Shown: positions 1,791 to 14,034 of the stretch, one piece after another
Layout of the letters: every line of letters starts with the position of its first letter
Numbering within the stretch: the stretch's first letter is position 1
Assembly (NCBI GenBank): GCA_002415085.1
Contig: DIBV01000015.1
Span: forward strand, 1-34,345
DNA: 34,345 nt
DNA from: Arsukibacterium sp. UBA5043
GTDB taxonomy: Bacteria; Pseudomonadota; Gammaproteobacteria; Enterobacterales; Alteromonadaceae
Direction: 5' to 3'
Notes under the pieces: generated by a model
The model's input: the letters and a program-made list of their open reading frames with translations, nothing else
The model's database searches: none
Told to the model about the DNA's origin: nothing
Position numbers and translations under genes: made by a program

Positions 1791-1970
1791 ACAACCGTCT
1801 CGACTATCGCTGGACTATTGCCAATTATGATCAGTGACGGCACTGGTGCGGAAGTTGTAAGTAGAATTGCAGCACCCATGGTGGGTGGCATGATAAGCGC
1901 AGTGGTGCTAACTTTATTGGTGTTGCCTGTAGTGTACTATTTATGGCGTCGACATTCGTTGCTAGGTTAA
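1791..1970 (+). pseudogene. C-terminal remnant of a heavy-metal RND efflux pump (CusA/CzcA-like)
   Basis: A frame with no start codon encodes 59 residues, from TTVSTIAGLLPIM to a TAA at 1968-1970. It aligns without gaps to the extreme C-terminus of the intact CusA encoded at 9318-12440; by hand count 51 of 59 residues agree. The DNA differs mostly at third positions, so it is a diverged paralogue and not a recent copy. TAG at 1788-1790 lies directly upstream in frame, and the similarity starts abruptly there, as expected of a deletion junction. The rest of the pump (about 980 codons) is absent. It ends just before the terminator at 1987, which may have belonged to the lost operon. Confidence 0.9.
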
Positions 1971-2288: not shown

Positions 2289-4838
2289 ATGTCTACAAAC
2301 CAGTCCATTGATGAGATCGTCATTGTAACTGGAAGTAGTGGCTATATAGGTTCTTCCGTCGTTAAGCGTCTTGCCTTGCATTTCCGTGTTATTGGTTTCG
2401 ACAGAGAGACCTCGCCTCACCCGCCCAAAGAGGCAGAATGCATCTGTATCGACCTGACTGATAAAATGAGTCTGAATGCTGCGTTTGACCGCATAAGGTC
2501 AGCTCATGGGGCTAGAATTGCTTCTATAATCCATCTGGCTTCATACTTTGATCTTACTGGTGAACCCAATCCCGCCTATGATGCAGTGACGCTTGATGGC
2601 ACACGCAACCTTTTGGAATGTCTGAAGGCATTTAAAGTTGATCAGTTTGTCTTTGTAAGCACAATGCTTGTGCATGCGCCCACTAAACATGGGTACCCTA
2701 TCAATGAAAGCAGTCCAGTGGATCCGAAGCTTCCATATCGGGAATCGAAGTTGCTCACTGAGAAAATTCTTGAAGAGGAGTCAAGAGACATACCGCTGGT
2801 GATATTACGTCCGGCGGGTGTGTATGACGAGGGATGCCATTCAGCATTCCTCAGTCAACAGATTGCCAGGATCTACGAACATCAACTGATCGCGCACCTA
2901 TATCCCGGATCTTTGTCAACGGGTCAACCCTATTTGCATTTGCAGGATCTGGTACATGCAATAGATAAAGCGGTTTGCAAGCGAAATGACCTGCCCAATA
3001 CCACAACGATCTTGATTGGCGAGCAGGATGTAATTGGCTATGGAGAGCTGCAGCGGAAGCTGGGACTACTGCTTCATGATGAGGAGTGGACAACGGTGTC
3101 GATTACACCGCAGATAGCGCATGCTGGATTGTGGGTTCAGGAAACGATGCTTGATGAGAACGTATTTCAGAAGTCATGGATGATCGACATTGCAAATGAT
3201 CACTACGAACTGGATATAGGCCGAGCGCAAGAACTACTCGAGTGGACGCCATCGCACAGGCTAGAAGACTCACTACCAGCGATGATCAACCAATTGAAGC
3301 AGGACCCCTATGCTTGGTATCAGCAGAATGGGTTGAACGCTGCCCGCGTGACTCATGACAAAATCGAACATGCAGATGAACGGATCGTCGAGCCAGACCC
3401 CATCAAAGAGCGACAATCGATGCGGAAGCATGAAAATGCTATGGAGAATATGCACTTCAACATGCTCTGGGTGCATTTTGCCACTATGATGATGGGCATT
3501 TGGCTGGCAACCAGCCCATTTGTCTTCGGGACATTCACCGATACCCAGTTTTCAGATATTTTGTTAGGTGTTACCCGGGAGCGCAATCTGTGGGATCTGG
3601 ATGTCCGAAACCTCCTAACGGCCTGGAACGATTTGATCGTGGGCTTGCTTATTGTACTTTTCGCGGTTCTCTCTCTTTCCAGGCGGGGTGGTCTCGCACA
3701 ATGGATGAACGCGCTGTTGGGGGTGTGGCTGTTGTTCGCCCCGATTCTTTTCTGGACACCGAATGCCGCCGTTTATGCGAACGACACTTTAGTTGGCTGT
3801 TTTGTTATCGCTTTTACGATCTTGATACCAATGATGCCGGGGATGAGTGCACAAAGCATGATGGATGACTCGGAAGTCCCACCCGGATGGAGCTATTCGC
3901 CGTCGACCTATCTGCAGAGAATTCCGATGATTGCGTTAGGCCTTTTTGGATTCGTCGTGGCACGAGTACTGGCGGCTTACCAGTTGGGTCATGTTGATTG
4001 GGTCTGGGAGCCATTCTTCACGGGTAACAGCGAGCGCAACGGCAGTGAACTCATTATTACGTCAGAGGTATCTAAGGCTTGGCCCATCGCAGATGGCGCG
4101 CTTGGAGCGATGGTGTATCTTTTCGAGGTGCTCATGGGCATCATGGGAGGAAGAAGCCGGTGGCGGACCATGCCCTGGATGGTAGTATTATTCGGAATTG
4201 CAGTCGTCCCACTTGGTGTTATCAGCATTTATTTCATCATCATCCAACCGATAGTGATCGGCACCTATTGTACGCCCTGTTTGATTACCGCGCTTGCAAT
4301 GTTGATCATGATCCCCTTTTCCTTGGACGAGCTCGTGGCCATGGGGCAGTTTTTAATTACGAATACGCGTCGCGGGCGACCTTTCTGGCGCGCTTTTTTC
4401 AAGGGAGATGCTCTGCCTGGTGGAACTGTCGACACCCGCCCTGATTTCCGGGATTCGCCTAAGGAGGCCTGGTATTCGGCAGTTCGTGGGGTCAACATGC
4501 CCTGGACACTTTCAGCTAGCGCGGGATTGGGACTTTGGCTAATGTTCAGTCGTCTGGTATTCGGTACAGACGGGGCTCTTGCGGATAGTGACCATCTCGT
4601 CGGTGCGCTGATCATAACCATCGCTATTATCTCGATGGCAGAAGTAGCTCGTCCTGCAAGATTTATTAACTTATTGTTCGGTGTGTGGTTAGTTATCGCG
4701 CCATGGATACTAGGTGGAGGACAAATTGATGGCCAAGTATCTACAACACTTGTTGGGATTCTGATATTTGCACTAAGTTTCTCACGTGGTCGTCGTAGCC
4801 GTGAACATTACGGTGAATGGGATCGTTACATAGTTTGA
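2289..4838 (+). CDS. SDR epimerase - SPW repeat - VKOR-like fusion membrane protein
   Basis: 849 residues in three parts. Residues 8-340 form an extended short-chain dehydrogenase/epimerase: Rossmann motif G15-x2-G18-x2-G21 and catalytic S124, Y150, K154 (YRESK). Residues 393-515 carry two spans of SPW-repeat type (GIWLATSPFVFG, GVWLLFAPILFW). Residues 545-690 are membrane-embedded and VKOR-like, with one CxxC (C661-TP-C664, in IGTYCTPCL); the second cysteine pair of canonical VKOR is not seen. A further SPW-like repeat is at 792-811 (GVWLVIAPWILGG). TTGGAGG precedes ATG 2289 by 7 nt. The NAD-binding part should face the cytoplasm. Substrate and pathway are unknown; its place among metal genes suggests an envelope or redox stress role (inference). 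It appears intact. Confidence 0.8.
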   Translation: MSTNQSIDEIVIVTGSSGYIGSSVVKRLALHFRVIGFDRETSPHPPKEAECICIDLTDKMSLNAAFDRIRSAHGARIASIIHLASYFDLTGEPNPAYDAVTLDGTRNLLECLKAFKVDQFVFVSTMLVHAPTKHGYPINESSPVDPKLPYRESKLLTEKILEEESRDIPLVILRPAGVYDEGCHSAFLSQQIARIYEHQLIAHLYPGSLSTGQPYLHLQDLVHAIDKAVCKRNDLPNTTTILIGEQDVIGYGELQRKLGLLLHDEEWTTVSITPQIAHAGLWVQETMLDENVFQKSWMIDIANDHYELDIGRAQELLEWTPSHRLEDSLPAMINQLKQDPYAWYQQNGLNAARVTHDKIEHADERIVEPDPIKERQSMRKHENAMENMHFNMLWVHFATMMMGIWLATSPFVFGTFTDTQFSDILLGVTRERNLWDLDVRNLLTAWNDLIVGLLIVLFAVLSLSRRGGLAQWMNALLGVWLLFAPILFWTPNAAVYANDTLVGCFVIAFTILIPMMPGMSAQSMMDDSEVPPGWSYSPSTYLQRIPMIALGLFGFVVARVLAAYQLGHVDWVWEPFFTGNSERNGSELIITSEVSKAWPIADGALGAMVYLFEVLMGIMGGRSRWRTMPWMVVLFGIAVVPLGVISIYFIIIQPIVIGTYCTPCLITALAMLIMIPFSLDELVAMGQFLITNTRRGRPFWRAFFKGDALPGGTVDTRPDFRDSPKEAWYSAVRGVNMPWTLSASAGLGLWLMFSRLVFGTDGALADSDHLVGALIITIAIISMAEVARPARFINLLFGVWLVIAPWILGGGQIDGQVSTTLVGILIFALSFSRGRRSREHYGEWDRYIV

Positions 4839-5127: not shown

Positions 5128-5361
5128 ATGAAGAATTTAATGCGTTCATTTTTACTTTTAGCATTCACTCTGCTTGCAAACACCTCCCTAGGTGCAGAAC
5201 AAGTGTCAGGTGGGATGATGCAAAGCTCCGGCATGATGGGCGCTGGATTCATGCTGGCATGCTCTGTGTTGCTGATTTTGCTGTTCGCTACGTTGGTTCT
5301 GGCGATACTAAGTATGATTAAATACCTATTCTACAGTAAATCAAAAAAAGAAGTAGATTGA
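5128..5361 (+). CDS. Small Met-rich exported/membrane protein, 77 residues
   Basis: Function not recognised. From ATG 5128 the protein has a signal-peptide-like N-terminus (MKNLMRSFLLLAFTLLANTSLGAEQ, cleavage plausible after LGA). A short methionine/glycine-rich patch follows (SGGMMQSSGMMGAGFM), then one strong membrane span (about residues 45-68) and a basic tail (KYLFYSKSKKEVD). TTGGAG lies 7 nt before this ATG, which rules out the longer open frame starting at 5008. Met-rich periplasmic patches often bind Cu(I) or Ag(I), so a copper accessory role is possible but unproven. It sits 289 bp after the fusion gene. Confidence 0.65.
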   Translation: MKNLMRSFLLLAFTLLANTSLGAEQVSGGMMQSSGMMGAGFMLACSVLLILLFATLVLAILSMIKYLFYSKSKKEVD

Positions 5362-5512: not shown

Positions 5513-5656
5513 ATGATAAATTGCATGGGAGGCACGATGGGCACTGGAATGATGATAGGCATGGGGTTGATTTGGCTACTGATAGTGGTCATCCTAATCG
5601 CGGCAGTGGCCGCCCTTTGGAAGTACTTGCGTTCAGACAAAACGCGGGATAAGTAG
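5513..5656 (+). CDS. Tiny Met/Gly-rich single-span membrane protein, 47 residues
   Basis: ATG 5513 opens 47 codons. An N-terminus rich in methionine and glycine (MINCMGGTMGTGMMIGMG) is followed by one hydrophobic span (about residues 19-37) and a charged tail (KYLRSDKTRDK). Upstream TTTAGGAAAATATAAA gives an AGGA about 11-12 nt before ATG, a little far. The layout (Met-rich head, one span, K-Y-L-x tail) mirrors the 77-residue protein just upstream, so the pair may be duplicated or functionally paired. Function not recognised. Confidence 0.55.
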   Translation: MINCMGGTMGTGMMIGMGLIWLLIVVILIAAVAALWKYLRSDKTRDK

Positions 5657-9317: not shown

Positions 9318-12300
9318 CTACATCTCCAACGAACGGGTCCGCCAAAGATAGTACACGACGGGTAGTACCAATAATGTTAAAACCACAGCACTCACCATTC
9401 CGCCAATCATAGGCGCCGCAATCCGGCTAACAACTTCCGCACCTGTTCCGGAACTGAGCATAATGGGCAGCAATCCAGCGATAGTGGAGACAGTGGTCAT
9501 CATTACGGGTCTTACACGAAGTCCTGCGCCCTGTGTCACGGCTTCGAGCAAATCTTGTTTTAATGGTGTCACTCCACGCTCACGGCATTTATCTATCAAT
9601 TGGTGATACGCTTGGTTGAGATAAGTCAACATGATGATACCTATTTCTACCGTAACCCCCGCCAGTGCAATAAAACCAACCGCAACTGCGACAGAAAAAT
9701 TATAGCCAAGCAGGTACATGAACCAGATAGATCCAATGACAGCCAGTGGTAACGTTCCCAATATAATGGCTATTTCAGTAAAGTTACGAAAATTCATGTA
9801 TAACAGAATGATTATGATGGCAAGCGTCAAAGGAACCACATAGGTCAGTTTCTCTTTGGCACGCTGCATGTATTCGTACTGACCAGACCAGCTCACCGAG
9901 TAGCCTGCCGGTAAATCTAGCTGCTGCTCAACCGTTGCCATGGCACTTTGTACATAGCTACCTACATCCACCCCTTCAATATCTACAAAGGTCCAGCCAT
10001 TCAGCCTGGCGTTCTCGCTCTTGATCGCTGGCGGACCATCCTCCACATAGACATTGGCCACATCTGCGAGCGCAATCCGTTGGCCGCTGGGCGTGACGAT
10101 GGGCAGCAGCGCAAGCTGTTCTGGCGAGTCTCGATAGTCCTGTGGGTAGCGTAGATTGATTGGATAACGCTCCAGCCCCTCAATGGTCTGCGCCACATTC
10201 ATTCCCCCAATGGCCGTGGCTATTACCTGCTGAACATCAGCAATATTGAGGCCATAACGCGCCGCTTGTGCACGCTGAATATCTACCTTGATATAACGCC
10301 CACCGGCCACCCTTTCGGAATACACCGAGGCTGTGCCGGGTACATCCTTGAGGATCTGTTCAAGTCGCTGACCAATCTTCTGAATTTGTCGCAAGTCTTT
10401 ACCCGCCACCTTGATGCCTACCGGCGTCTTGATACCGGTGGCTAACATGTCAATGCGGGTCTTAATCGGCATCACCCAGGCGTTGGTCAGGCCCGGAAAC
10501 TTCACCAGCGCGTCCAGTTCCTTTTTAAGCTTTTCCGTGGTCATGCCTTCGCGCCATTCTTCTTTTGGTTTGAGCTGAATGAACGTCTCAATCATGGTCA
10601 GCGGAGCTGGATCTGTGGCTGTCTCCGCTCGGCCAATTTTGCCAAACACGGTTTTTACCTCAGGCACTGTCGCGATCAACTTGTCCGACTGCTGTAGCAA
10701 TTCTCTGGCTTTGCCGATAGAGATCCCCGGATAAGTGGTCGGCATATACATTAAATCACCTTCATCCAGATCGGGGATAAATTCACTACCAATTTTGTTA
10801 ACGGGCCAGATCCCAACGAGGAAAATCACAACCGCCATGGAAAGTGTGATTTTCGGAAATCGTAATACGGTTTTAAGCAGGGGCATGTACCCAGCAATCA
10901 GTACTCTATTAATGGGATTTTTATTTTCAGCTACCACCTTGCCTCTGATGAAATAGCCCATCAAAACAGGTACTACGGTAATAGCAAGCGCGGCGCTGGC
11001 TGCCATTGCATAGGTTTTGGTAAAAGCCAACGGGCTGAACATCCGACCTTCCTGAGCCTCCAAGGTGAACACTGGCACAAAGCTTACAGTGATAATTAGC
11101 AGACTAAAAAATAGTGCAGGACCGACTTCACTAGCTGACTCGGCCACGATTCTCCAACGGTTCTCTGGCGTCAAAGGCGTACGTTCCATATGCTTATGCA
11201 TGTTTTCGATCATGACAATCGCGCCATCTATCATGGCACCTATCGCAATTGCAATACCGCCTAAAGACATTATATTGGCATTAAGGCCTTGCCAATACAT
11301 CACGATAAAAGCCGTAAGAATACCTAGTGGCAGACTAATGACCGCCACCAGTGATGACCTGACATGAAACAGAAAGATGACACAGATCAGCGCCACAATA
11401 GCGAGTTCTTCCGCCAGACTTCTCCACAAACTGCCAATGGCGCGAGATATCAATCCGGAACGATCATAAACGGTAACAACCTCCACGCCTTCGGGCAATC
11501 CCGCCGTGAGTTTTTCCAGTTTGGTCTTGACCCCATCAATGGTTTTCTGGGCGTTCTCACCGAAACGCATCACTACAATACCACCCACCACTTCACCTTC
11601 GCCGTTCAACTCGGCGATACCACGGCGCATTTGCGGCCCCAACTCAATATCCGCCACGTCCTTGAGCAACAGCGGCGTACCGTTAACATCCAACCCTAAT
11701 GGAATGTTGGCCAGATCATCGATCCCCCTGATGTAACCGTTTGCCCGCACCATGTATTCGGCTTCAGCCATTTCCACCACTGAGGCGCCCACTTCCTGAT
11801 TGCCGCGCTGGATCGCCATCTGAATATGGGACAGGGGGATACTGAAAGCACGCAGTTTTTCAGGGTTCACTTTCACTTGGTATTGTTTGACCATGCCGCC
11901 AAGCGTCGAGACTTCGGAAACACCTGGTACGGTTTGCAGCTCGAATTTCAGGAACCAGTCCTGCAGGCTGCGCAACTGACTGAGGTCATGCTTGCCGGTA
12001 CGATCCACCAGCGCGTAGAGATAAACCCAGCCAACTCCGGTAGCGTCCGGCCCCAGTTGCGGCCGGGCGCTTGGCGGCAATGTCGGCGCAACTTGAGACA
12101 GATACTCCAGCACCCTGGAACGTGCCCAGTAGGCATCGGTATCCTCGTCAAAAATGACATACACGTAGGAATCGCCAAAAAAGGAATAACCGCGCACGGT
12201 AACCGCACCAGGTACCGACAACATGGCTGTAGTCAGTGGGTACGTGACCTGATCCTCCACCACCTGCGGCGCCTGCCCAGGAAAACTGGTCTTAATAATG

Positions 12301-12440
12301 ACCTGTACATCGGACAGATCGGGGATGGCGTCCACCGGGGTGTTTTTAAGCGAATAGAGACCTATCCCCACCAACATCAAAGTAGCCAGCAACACGAAGA
12401 AACGGTTACCGATGGACCAACGGATTATCGACTCAATCAT
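9318..12440 (-). CDS. cusA: CusA-type Cu(I)/Ag(I) RND efflux pump
   Basis: Inner-membrane proton-driven pump of the tripartite CusCBA complex; 1040 residues, normal for HME-RND proteins. It starts MIESIIRWSIGNRFFV, followed by the porter region DAIPDLSDVQV and the TMH4 signature GAMIDGAIVMIENMHKHMER, which with the downstream methionine sites is the CusA/SilA (HME4) type. Methionines in the PAPLTMIET and RIDMLATG segments match the copper-site region of the porter cleft. Twelve spans in the usual 1+5+1+5 pattern are apparent. ATG 12440 has AAGGAG 8 nt upstream and overlaps the end of cusB by 8 nt, so they are coupled. A more upstream ATG (12467) is less likely. Silver and copper cannot be told apart. 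Confidence 0.93.
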   Translation of the reverse strand: MIESIIRWSIGNRFFVLLATLMLVGIGLYSLKNTPVDAIPDLSDVQVIIKTSFPGQAPQVVEDQVTYPLTTAMLSVPGAVTVRGYSFFGDSYVYVIFDEDTDAYWARSRVLEYLSQVAPTLPPSARPQLGPDATGVGWVYLYALVDRTGKHDLSQLRSLQDWFLKFELQTVPGVSEVSTLGGMVKQYQVKVNPEKLRAFSIPLSHIQMAIQRGNQEVGASVVEMAEAEYMVRANGYIRGIDDLANIPLGLDVNGTPLLLKDVADIELGPQMRRGIAELNGEGEVVGGIVVMRFGENAQKTIDGVKTKLEKLTAGLPEGVEVVTVYDRSGLISRAIGSLWRSLAEELAIVALICVIFLFHVRSSLVAVISLPLGILTAFIVMYWQGLNANIMSLGGIAIAIGAMIDGAIVMIENMHKHMERTPLTPENRWRIVAESASEVGPALFFSLLIITVSFVPVFTLEAQEGRMFSPLAFTKTYAMAASAALAITVVPVLMGYFIRGKVVAENKNPINRVLIAGYMPLLKTVLRFPKITLSMAVVIFLVGIWPVNKIGSEFIPDLDEGDLMYMPTTYPGISIGKARELLQQSDKLIATVPEVKTVFGKIGRAETATDPAPLTMIETFIQLKPKEEWREGMTTEKLKKELDALVKFPGLTNAWVMPIKTRIDMLATGIKTPVGIKVAGKDLRQIQKIGQRLEQILKDVPGTASVYSERVAGGRYIKVDIQRAQAARYGLNIADVQQVIATAIGGMNVAQTIEGLERYPINLRYPQDYRDSPEQLALLPIVTPSGQRIALADVANVYVEDGPPAIKSENARLNGWTFVDIEGVDVGSYVQSAMATVEQQLDLPAGYSVSWSGQYEYMQRAKEKLTYVVPLTLAIIIILLYMNFRNFTEIAIILGTLPLAVIGSIWFMYLLGYNFSVAVAVGFIALAGVTVEIGIIMLTYLNQAYHQLIDKCRERGVTPLKQDLLEAVTQGAGLRVRPVMMTTVSTIAGLLPIMLSSGTGAEVVSRIAAPMIGGMVSAVVLTLLVLPVVYYLWRTRSLEM

Positions 12441-14034
12441 GATTGTGCTCCTTCTGATCATGTTCACCGTGGTTCATGCCTCGCTGTTCTCTGTGCTCCG
12501 GCATCGACATATCTCCGTGATCCATTTCTGTAGGCATGTTTTCATTGCCTTGGTCATCGGGAATATGTACTAGACTAATTTGGTATTCCCCATTGTTGTT
12601 ATTGATGATCTGCACATGCAGGTGCATTCCCTGTTTGAGCTCATCCATATCTACAGCGTCTGCGACGAAGAAATCCATGGTCATAGCAGGCCACTGCCAC
12701 TCAGGAATGGCCTCATGTTCAAGCGATAACATTCTATGCTCTGCCATCACACCGACAATGCGAGCCGCTACCCAAACCGGCTGTTTTAGATTTGCAGGCT
12801 CAGCATTATAATTATGTTCATCACTCTCTTGCTCATACTGAGTCATACGCAGGAAATCGGACGTTTTACTGGACTCAGAATCAATCAGAAACTGAGCAGA
12901 AGTTACAATATGCTCTCCCTCGTTTAGACCGGTTAATATCTCCACTTGCTGCTCAGCTATTCGTCCAACAGTAACTGCTATAGATTTAAATTTTCCTTCA
13001 CCTAGTGCCAACACCACTCGGGACTGACTGCCGGTGCGAATCAGTGCCTCTCGGGGTATTAGCAATGCTTCAGCTTCTGATTGAGTCTCAATAAAAAGCT
13101 GGGCGAACATGCCCGGTTTTAAAACAACATCAGGATTAGGGAGACCAACACGAATCTGAGCAGTACGCGTTTGAGTATCCAAAGAGGGATAAACGTAATC
13201 TATCTTTCCCTGCCATTCACGGCCTGGCACGTAGTCCAGACGCACAGTTACAGGATCACCCTCGCCAATGAGGCTTGCCTGGCGTTCAAATACCTCACCA
13301 ATGATCCAGATATGTTCCAGCTTACCAATACTCATCAAGCTCATACCGGGTTTGACATACATTCCCTCACGGACTGCCAGATTATCTACTACACCGGATT
13401 GTGGAGAGTTGATAGTGATAGTTCGGCTAACCTTCAGCGTCTTTTTTAACTTTTCAATGTCCTCTTTTGCCAACTGAAGAGCTAGTAATCGTTCTGTTGC
13501 GGCGTCGATCAATACTCTATTGTTGCGCTTCAATGCCAGCAATAATTCTTCCTGGGCATTAACCAACGTAGGCGAATACAGTGCAAACAAAGGTTCACCT
13601 TGTACAACTGGATCGCCTGCTGCTTTGGTATATAAGCGTTCTATCCATCCTTCAACACGGGGGCTCACATGCACCAACTGGTTTTCATCGTACTGTACAT
13701 AACCAACAGTGTTTACTTGTAAATCCAGCTGTCCTCTTTGAACTTTAGCGGTACGAACTCCAAGATTATTAATAACCTCAGGTGAAATTTTAATGGTGCC
13801 AGCTTCGTCTGCACCGTCTTCATACACCGGAATAAGATCCATACCCATAGGCGACTTGCCGGGTTTGTCTCGCTTATAGTTTGGATCCATCGGTGCCACC
13901 CAGTAAAGCGGCTTACGGTCACCACCGGCTGCTGTCGTCTCACTATCATTTGGGCTATTTAACAACCAGACAACAGAGGCGCCTATCAGTGCTCCGACAG
14001 TTGAACTCAGCAATATTTTGGTTAATGTATTCAT
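12433..14034 (-). CDS. cusB: CusB membrane fusion protein with fused CusF-like domain
   Basis: Periplasmic adaptor joining CusA to CusC, 533 residues. An N-terminal anchor spans residues 1-24. A heavy-metal-binding segment (YWVAPMDPNYKRDKPGKSPMG) covers about 44-64. The hairpin, lipoyl and beta-barrel core covers about 75-400. Residues about 418-495 form a CusF-like copper chaperone domain, with the His, Trp and Met ligands visible in SLEHEAIPEWQWPAMTMDF. A His/Met-rich tail follows (about 500-533, HGDMSMPEH, HDQKEHNHD). ATG 14034 is chosen: AAAGGA lies upstream and it gives a clean 13-bp gap after cusC. Fusion makes a free CusF unnecessary; none is seen nearby. Confidence 0.92.
   Translation of the reverse strand: MNTLTKILLSSTVGALIGASVVWLLNSPNDSETTAAGGDRKPLYWVAPMDPNYKRDKPGKSPMGMDLIPVYEDGADEAGTIKISPEVINNLGVRTAKVQRGQLDLQVNTVGYVQYDENQLVHVSPRVEGWIERLYTKAAGDPVVQGEPLFALYSPTLVNAQEELLLALKRNNRVLIDAATERLLALQLAKEDIEKLKKTLKVSRTITINSPQSGVVDNLAVREGMYVKPGMSLMSIGKLEHIWIIGEVFERQASLIGEGDPVTVRLDYVPGREWQGKIDYVYPSLDTQTRTAQIRVGLPNPDVVLKPGMFAQLFIETQSEAEALLIPREALIRTGSQSRVVLALGEGKFKSIAVTVGRIAEQQVEILTGLNEGEHIVTSAQFLIDSESSKTSDFLRMTQYEQESDEHNYNAEPANLKQPVWVAARIVGVMAEHRMLSLEHEAIPEWQWPAMTMDFFVADAVDMDELKQGMHLHVQIINNNNGEYQISLVHIPDDQGNENMPTEMDHGDMSMPEHREQRGMNHGEHDQKEHNHD

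Follow-up and report, generated by a model that had tools for sequence, protein, structure and literature searches.

An extended SDR fused to SPW repeats and a VKOR-like bundle lacking loop cysteines, often encoded beside metal-resistance genes

In thiol oxidation, DsbB and VKOR play analogous roles. Extended SDRs, such as GalE, HpnA, 3-beta-HSD and NDUFA9-like proteins, have a Rossmann head, which the protein studied here shares, with its GxxGxxG, D38 and YxxxK elements. In the available passages of PMC4555120, enzymes of the VKOR fold have two conserved pairs of cysteines; the human loop cysteines Cys43 and Cys51 count among the fully conserved residues, and SPW and epimerase are not mentioned. 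Passages of PMC8078820 note a VKOR or an epimerase domain in some SPW proteins, for which they give no function, and a VKOR gene lies on a Sulfobacillus plasmid region in PMC6803676, in the available part of which the words epimerase and SPW are absent. Here we analyze a gene of Arsukibacterium sp. UBA5043 that encodes all of these elements in one chain. It occupies positions 2289-4838 of a 34,345-nucleotide stretch (assembly GCA_002415085.1, contig DIBV01000015.1), hereafter called the window. The component domains are already in domain databases. In the open-licence literature searched, the phrase 'SPW repeat' was not found, nor was any account of what the fusion does, of the loss of its cysteines in pairs or of the glycoside hydrolase module described below.

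Computation supports a protein made of a cytosolic NAD-type extended SDR and two four-helix SPW blocks that flank a VKOR-type bundle, with the CxxC of the bundle, when present, predicted to point towards the periplasm. The coding sequence (2289..4838, + strand) starts with ATG and specifies 849 amino acids with 12 predicted transmembrane helices. The extended SDR head (residues 1-345, 2289..3323, +) has GxxGxxG at 15/18/21, D38, S124 and Y150xxxK154, and a linker (residues 346-392, 3324..3464, +) connects it to the membrane part, which consists of SPW block 1 (residues 393-512, 3465..3824, +; four predicted transmembrane helices), the VKOR-like four-helix bundle (residues 541-694, 3909..4370, +) and SPW block 2 (residues 739-831, 4503..4781, +; again four predicted helices). 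The CTPC motif, C661/C664 (4269..4280, +), sits at the start of the fourth VKOR helix on the predicted outer (periplasmic) face. An initial annotation had proposed that epimerase, SPW and VKOR-like parts share one protein, and this is borne out: the reading frame is real, and all domains exceed their Pfam cut-offs, with Epimerase at residues 11-244 (E 2e-26, above the curated cut-off), SPW in three stretches (E 3.5e-28; 98.3 bits against a gathering score of 31.5) and VKOR at residues 546-678 (E 4e-20, above the curated cut-off). When the full-length model was submitted to Foldseek, all 50 matches listed were SDRs, mostly NDP-sugar epimerases and dehydratases; against NCBIfam, the SDR head stayed below the cut-off for each of the 25 models listed of 31. 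The SDR and the CxxC are predicted to lie on opposite membrane faces, on the basis of AlphaFold2 helices and a charge bias, lysine and arginine making up 4.2% of loop residues on the CxxC side versus 12.7% on the SDR side.

Each described relative shares part of this arrangement. The SPW repeat family (PF03779) shares the SPW blocks, which here stand in one chain ordered SDR, SPW, VKOR, SPW, and the extended SDRs share the head, which here is fused to 12 predicted transmembrane helices. In contrast to the VKOR family (PF07884; Synechococcus VKOR 3KP9/4NV5, vertebrate VKOR 6WV3-6WV8), the proteins studied here have no conserved loop pair, lack the CxxC in 19 of 105 cases and hold the bundle between SPW blocks. 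DsbB (PF02600) is encoded elsewhere in the genome of the window and is not among the Pfam families found for the fusion protein.

A VKOR-like bundle had been proposed from the sequence, and a model of residues 530-712 (mean pLDDT 76.8, moderate confidence) agrees with it in that its top PDB matches are VKOR structures, at Foldseek E-values of 0.035 at best and none below 0.001. Given this pLDDT and these weak E-values, the assignment is only moderate. Profile alignment with hhalign (E 2.7e-5, probability 74%) places the CxxC on the CxxC of two canonical VKORs, and S592, a serine in 105/105 sequences, appears to pair with human Ser57 in the same output, in which the loop register is uncertain. 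A PDB sequence search with the membrane core gave no match at E 1; a SecE match (E 0.08) of the VKOR-region profile in a PDB search was taken as chance. A search for a phage relative of the VKOR region found none.

The fusion is not an orphan and has widespread relatives. At least 80% of the protein is carried in one place by 118 of the 311 matching plasmid records, the membrane core alone has matches in 138 plasmid records, and the genome scan returned at least 544 confirmed candidate stretches; at E 1e-20 the core occurs in 6 of the 398 genomes of a phylum sample, the window's own included. That genome also holds a second copy with 41-50% identity on a 551 kb contig, where it lies beside a baeRF family 3 gene (L177 7604-8929, - strand), a setting unlike the metal islands. 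Replicon NC_020560.1 of Sinorhizobium meliloti 2011 carries a homologue from a group with weaker metal linkage. We compared 105 loci, comprising the window, 80 genome loci, 12 plasmid loci and 12 loci from further genomes; the genome loci are the best 80 of at least 544 confirmed relatives, so closer relatives dominate the genome set. Four loci (L048, L054, L085, L032) are split: a change of frame or a gene boundary separates the SDR from the membrane core, or one part of the core from another.

Equivalents of both C661 and C664 are present in 86/105 sequences and neither is present in 19/105, in which the motif reads STPA (17), STLA (1) or SIIA (1); no sequence has a single cysteine. Between residues 538 and 660 no position has cysteine in 8 or more of the 105 sequences, which makes the missing loop pair, already suspected in the initial annotation for this one protein with its single CxxC, a trait of the family. 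Since the loop cysteines are missing, the protein should not be filed as a true VKOR, its predicted VKOR-type fold notwithstanding. On a tree of 104 core rows (a quick method with some long branches and no bootstrap, motif columns excluded), the presence or absence of the CxxC needs 3 changes, at least 2 of which are forced by well supported branches; the CxxC has been lost at least twice, both cysteines together. It is present in the Proteobacteria, haloarchaeal, Nitrospirota and Bacteroidota cores that were compared and, because the last three groups have it, looks ancestral. Two genomes (G453, G463) carry both CxxC and cysteine-less copies; for a third (G461) two cysteine-less copies and no CxxC copy are shown. 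C537, which is cysteine in 38/104 sequences, was considered as a partner and rejected: it occurs in 6/19 sequences without the CxxC against 32/86 with it, and is predicted to lie on the opposite side of the membrane.

Residues conserved at 98% or more gather in the outer VKOR loop (G567, W573, P575, F576, F577, N584, G585, S592, S595, P599), next to the CxxC (Q653, P654), in the inner RWRTM loop (residues 624-628) and in the inner linker ahead of the bundle (P517, G518, P531, G533, W534, P538, S539). This clustering indicates that the outer pocket region is retained even where the cysteines are gone.

In the SDR head, Y150 and K154 are both retained in 86/105 sequences. A further 14 lack SDR sequence in the same frame, and some of these, for example L048, L054, L085 and L102, are contig ends or frame breaks rather than stand-alone cores. 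The remaining 5 were scored as changed; among them, L077 is a core to which no SDR is fused. All 19 cysteine-less proteins retain G15/G18/G21, D38, S124, Y150 and K154. Conversely, four near-identical proteins of the Cupriavidus type (L034, L094, L097, L180) keep the CxxC and have L/M in place of Y/K, in an operon that encodes a separate classical SDR, its YxxxK intact in L034. The initial annotation had suggested that the protein might couple NAD(P)H to disulfide or quinone chemistry under metal stress, which for a disulfide would amount to a transmembrane relay, with electrons moving from NAD(P)H in the SDR by way of the bundle to the disulfide or in the other direction. An NAD-type SDR and a CxxC do stand in one chain, and CxxC and Y150/K154 occur together in 67/105 sequences, but the two centres have been lost independently, which argues against one obligatory wire between them. 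With the predicted placement of SDR and CxxC on opposite sides of the membrane, and with no second conserved cysteine pair in the membrane part of the 105 sequences, such a relay now appears very improbable.

A metal-island setting had also been proposed. On one side of the gene the window encodes a MerR-type regulator, a CDF transporter and a YnfA-like protein; on the other it encodes small membrane proteins followed by mer genes, and beyond these RND, CopA-type ATPase, multicopper oxidase and CopB-type genes (all names from sequence reading). For the survey, neighbour marker proteins were taken from ten of the 105 loci (window included), and these seed loci, which match themselves, are included in the counts over all 105 loci and over the main clade. 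Controls were 20 kb stretches placed by hand in family-carrying genomes, of which 40 were requested, 31 existed and 28 (at least 15 kb) were used; they slightly exceed the hit neighbourhoods in length and were not drawn as a formal random sample. At the 105 loci versus the 28 controls we find DUF411 at 37 versus 1, RND at 30 versus 0, multicopper oxidase at 28 versus 1, CopA at 27 versus 2, DUF305 at 18 versus 0, a four-helix copper protein at 15 versus 0, MerR at 48 versus 2, SHOCT at 5 versus 1, a stand-alone SDR at 10 versus 4 and a family 15 glycoside hydrolase (GH15) at 14 versus 0. After dereplication at 90% identity, 29/36 members of the main clade have a metal marker and 25/36 a copper-type marker, compared with 3/28 controls for both. 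When the marker count was repeated on genome loci alone with both flanks, a metal marker was present at 39/48 loci before dereplication and at 21/29 after it, against 3/28 controls (Fisher p 2.5e-6); the remaining 8/29 have none. The association with metal genes thus stood across genomes, and the second part of that expectation, small Met-rich neighbours, did not: the window has two small Met-rich membrane proteins (5128-5361, + strand, and 5513-5656, + strand; no Pfam match), and a relative of the first occurs at only 2/105 loci, the window and a Glaciecola plasmid.

It is quite unlikely that the gene is a passenger, a general membrane enzyme that rides on metal islands and has no metal role. 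Identical core rows occur across different genera and families in the tree, which points to horizontal movement, and the paralogue/Rhizobium group has few metal neighbours (5/14, not a strong linkage), as a passenger would. Against this stand the enrichment of metal markers over same-genome controls, the four-helix copper-binding protein that heads the module in three haloarchaea and in Cupriavidus, and an HMBD-type motif inserted between SDR and SPW in some members. The motif is found in 4/105 members (L110 421-3450, L114, L102, L108), from Thiogranum (two), Hydrogenophilales and Sulfuriferula, with three HMBD stretches in L110 by Pfam; a Cupriavidus relative has a His-rich stretch in the linker region between SDR and membrane part.

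Such linkers, together with the copper-gene neighbours, would also fit a protein that handles copper or mercury itself, the CxxC sensing, storing or passing on Cu(I) with help from the HMBD or His-rich segments in some relatives, and the paired loss of both cysteines is as expected of a two-thiolate metal site. We consider this unlikely: the HMBD motif is rare, 14/17 cysteine-less genome members are still near metal genes, the SDR head is left without a role, and in the profile alignment the CxxC falls on the redox motif of canonical VKOR.

Directly around the gene, a 50-codon frame at 1818-1970 (+) resembles the C-terminus of a CusA-like RND pump; it is probably what is left of a pump gene that once stood immediately upstream of the fusion, and an intact pump lies at 9318-12467. 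In some relatives, L033 among them, an intact RND gene stands directly upstream. A terminator-like hairpin at 1987-2015 follows the 1818-1970 frame, and an inverted-repeat search for a regulator site upstream of the gene gave nothing but this terminator stem and short weak repeats.

In lineages other than that of the window, the core is part of a module with GH15 and SDR genes. Five haloarchaeal plasmid loci were read for it. Haloprofundus, Halalkalicoccus and Natrinema have the order four-helix copper protein, GH15, core, SDR, and the GH15 and core genes overlap by 4 bp in two of the three. In Haladaptatus a separate extended SDR, annotated as NDUFA9-like, comes 93 bp after the core, with a heavy-metal P-type ATPase nearby and no GH15; Halomarina has only a partial core without module neighbours. 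Among bacteria, Manganitrophus has core, GH15 and SDR adjoining copper genes, and Cupriavidus has the order four-helix protein, GH15, SDR, fusion. The Pontibacter core overlaps a glycoside hydrolase gene near a four-helix copper protein, with no SDR marker; this neighbour, annotated as trehalase-like, was considered as a GH15 and found to be MGH1-like instead. An annotated family 1 glycosyl hydrolase lies close downstream of the Microvirga fusion, and GH15 follows several alphaproteobacterial fusions, sometimes with an SDR-like stretch in between. Within 10 kb of the window gene there is neither a GH15 nor a stand-alone SDR marker. All five GH15 proteins scanned have TREH_N, a trehalase-like N-terminal domain, and one resembles archaeal trehalase models at scores below their cut-offs. 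PDB sequence searches with the Manganitrophus GH15 gave no match at E 1e-5, and with the Halalkalicoccus GH15 only a 29-residue stretch matching PPR-type proteins. The idea that the fused SDR is the neighbouring SDR joined on was rejected, since the neighbour is classical (adh_short) and the fused head of the Epimerase type; between the fused head and the stand-alone extended SDR of Haladaptatus the match is only 23%. On plasmid pMR68 of Pseudomonas sp. K-62 (L216 6439-11534), genes for a GH15, two FAD-dependent oxidoreductases and a glucose 1-dehydrogenase follow one another, and this coreless cluster may be related.

Since SDRs and glycoside hydrolases of more than one family recur alongside, a glycan or polyprenyl-sugar role is the strongest rival, and a close one, possible although rather doubtful. 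On this view the VKOR-type/SPW part would hold a polyprenyl lipid, and the substrate of the SDR head would be a sugar that this lipid carries or is to receive; together with the glycoside hydrolase and the second SDR, the head would remodel an envelope compound of the trehalose or glucose type that dampens metal stress. NDP-sugar epimerases as best matches of the SDR model, the trehalase-like character of the GH15 neighbours with their overlap with the core gene in two haloarchaea, the recurrence of sugar-cleaving neighbours as GH15, MGH1-like and family 1 proteins, and the persistence of the SDR where the CxxC is lost all fit such an enzyme. However, GH15 is near only 14/105 loci, and residues 176/177 are Ala/Gly in most members, at positions where NDP-sugar enzymes usually carry Asn. 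It also leaves the retention of the CxxC from archaea to bacteria unexplained.

We tentatively favour, at less than even confidence, an accessory redox enzyme of the inner membrane (envelope) that belongs to copper/mercury resistance islands and has a separate SDR step. Its VKOR-type pocket would bind a quinone or other isoprenoid. The CxxC, where present, would need no loop-cysteine relay of the true VKOR kind: it would exchange with an envelope thiol or a copper-thiolate directly and pass the electrons to the quinone. The SDR may serve the same stress pathway with an NAD-dependent step of its own, acting on a carbonyl or a sugar, and in some lineages the glycoside hydrolase and second SDR could have been recruited for it. 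Both halves would then have a pathway and a membrane address in common, not one obligatory electron wire. It is also possible, though doubtful, that the four-helix copper-binding protein, the trehalase-like glycoside hydrolase, the SDR and the SPW-VKOR-SPW core form a recurring haloarchaeal and bacterial copper-stress module, in which the VKOR fold has become a loop-cysteine-free, and in some lineages cysteine-free, ligand pocket that works with an SDR in chemistry other than thiol-quinone exchange.

The fusion belongs to a large family in two domains of life, often on metal islands, that has no loop pair and has lost the CxxC in some lineages, and that keeps the fold, the SDR and often the copper neighbourhood. 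If it is an enzyme, it would represent an unstudied reaction in copper tolerance and show what a VKOR pocket does without thiols, a question that can be tested directly with the cysteine-less forms found in nature and with the Cupriavidus form, whose SDR is degenerate.
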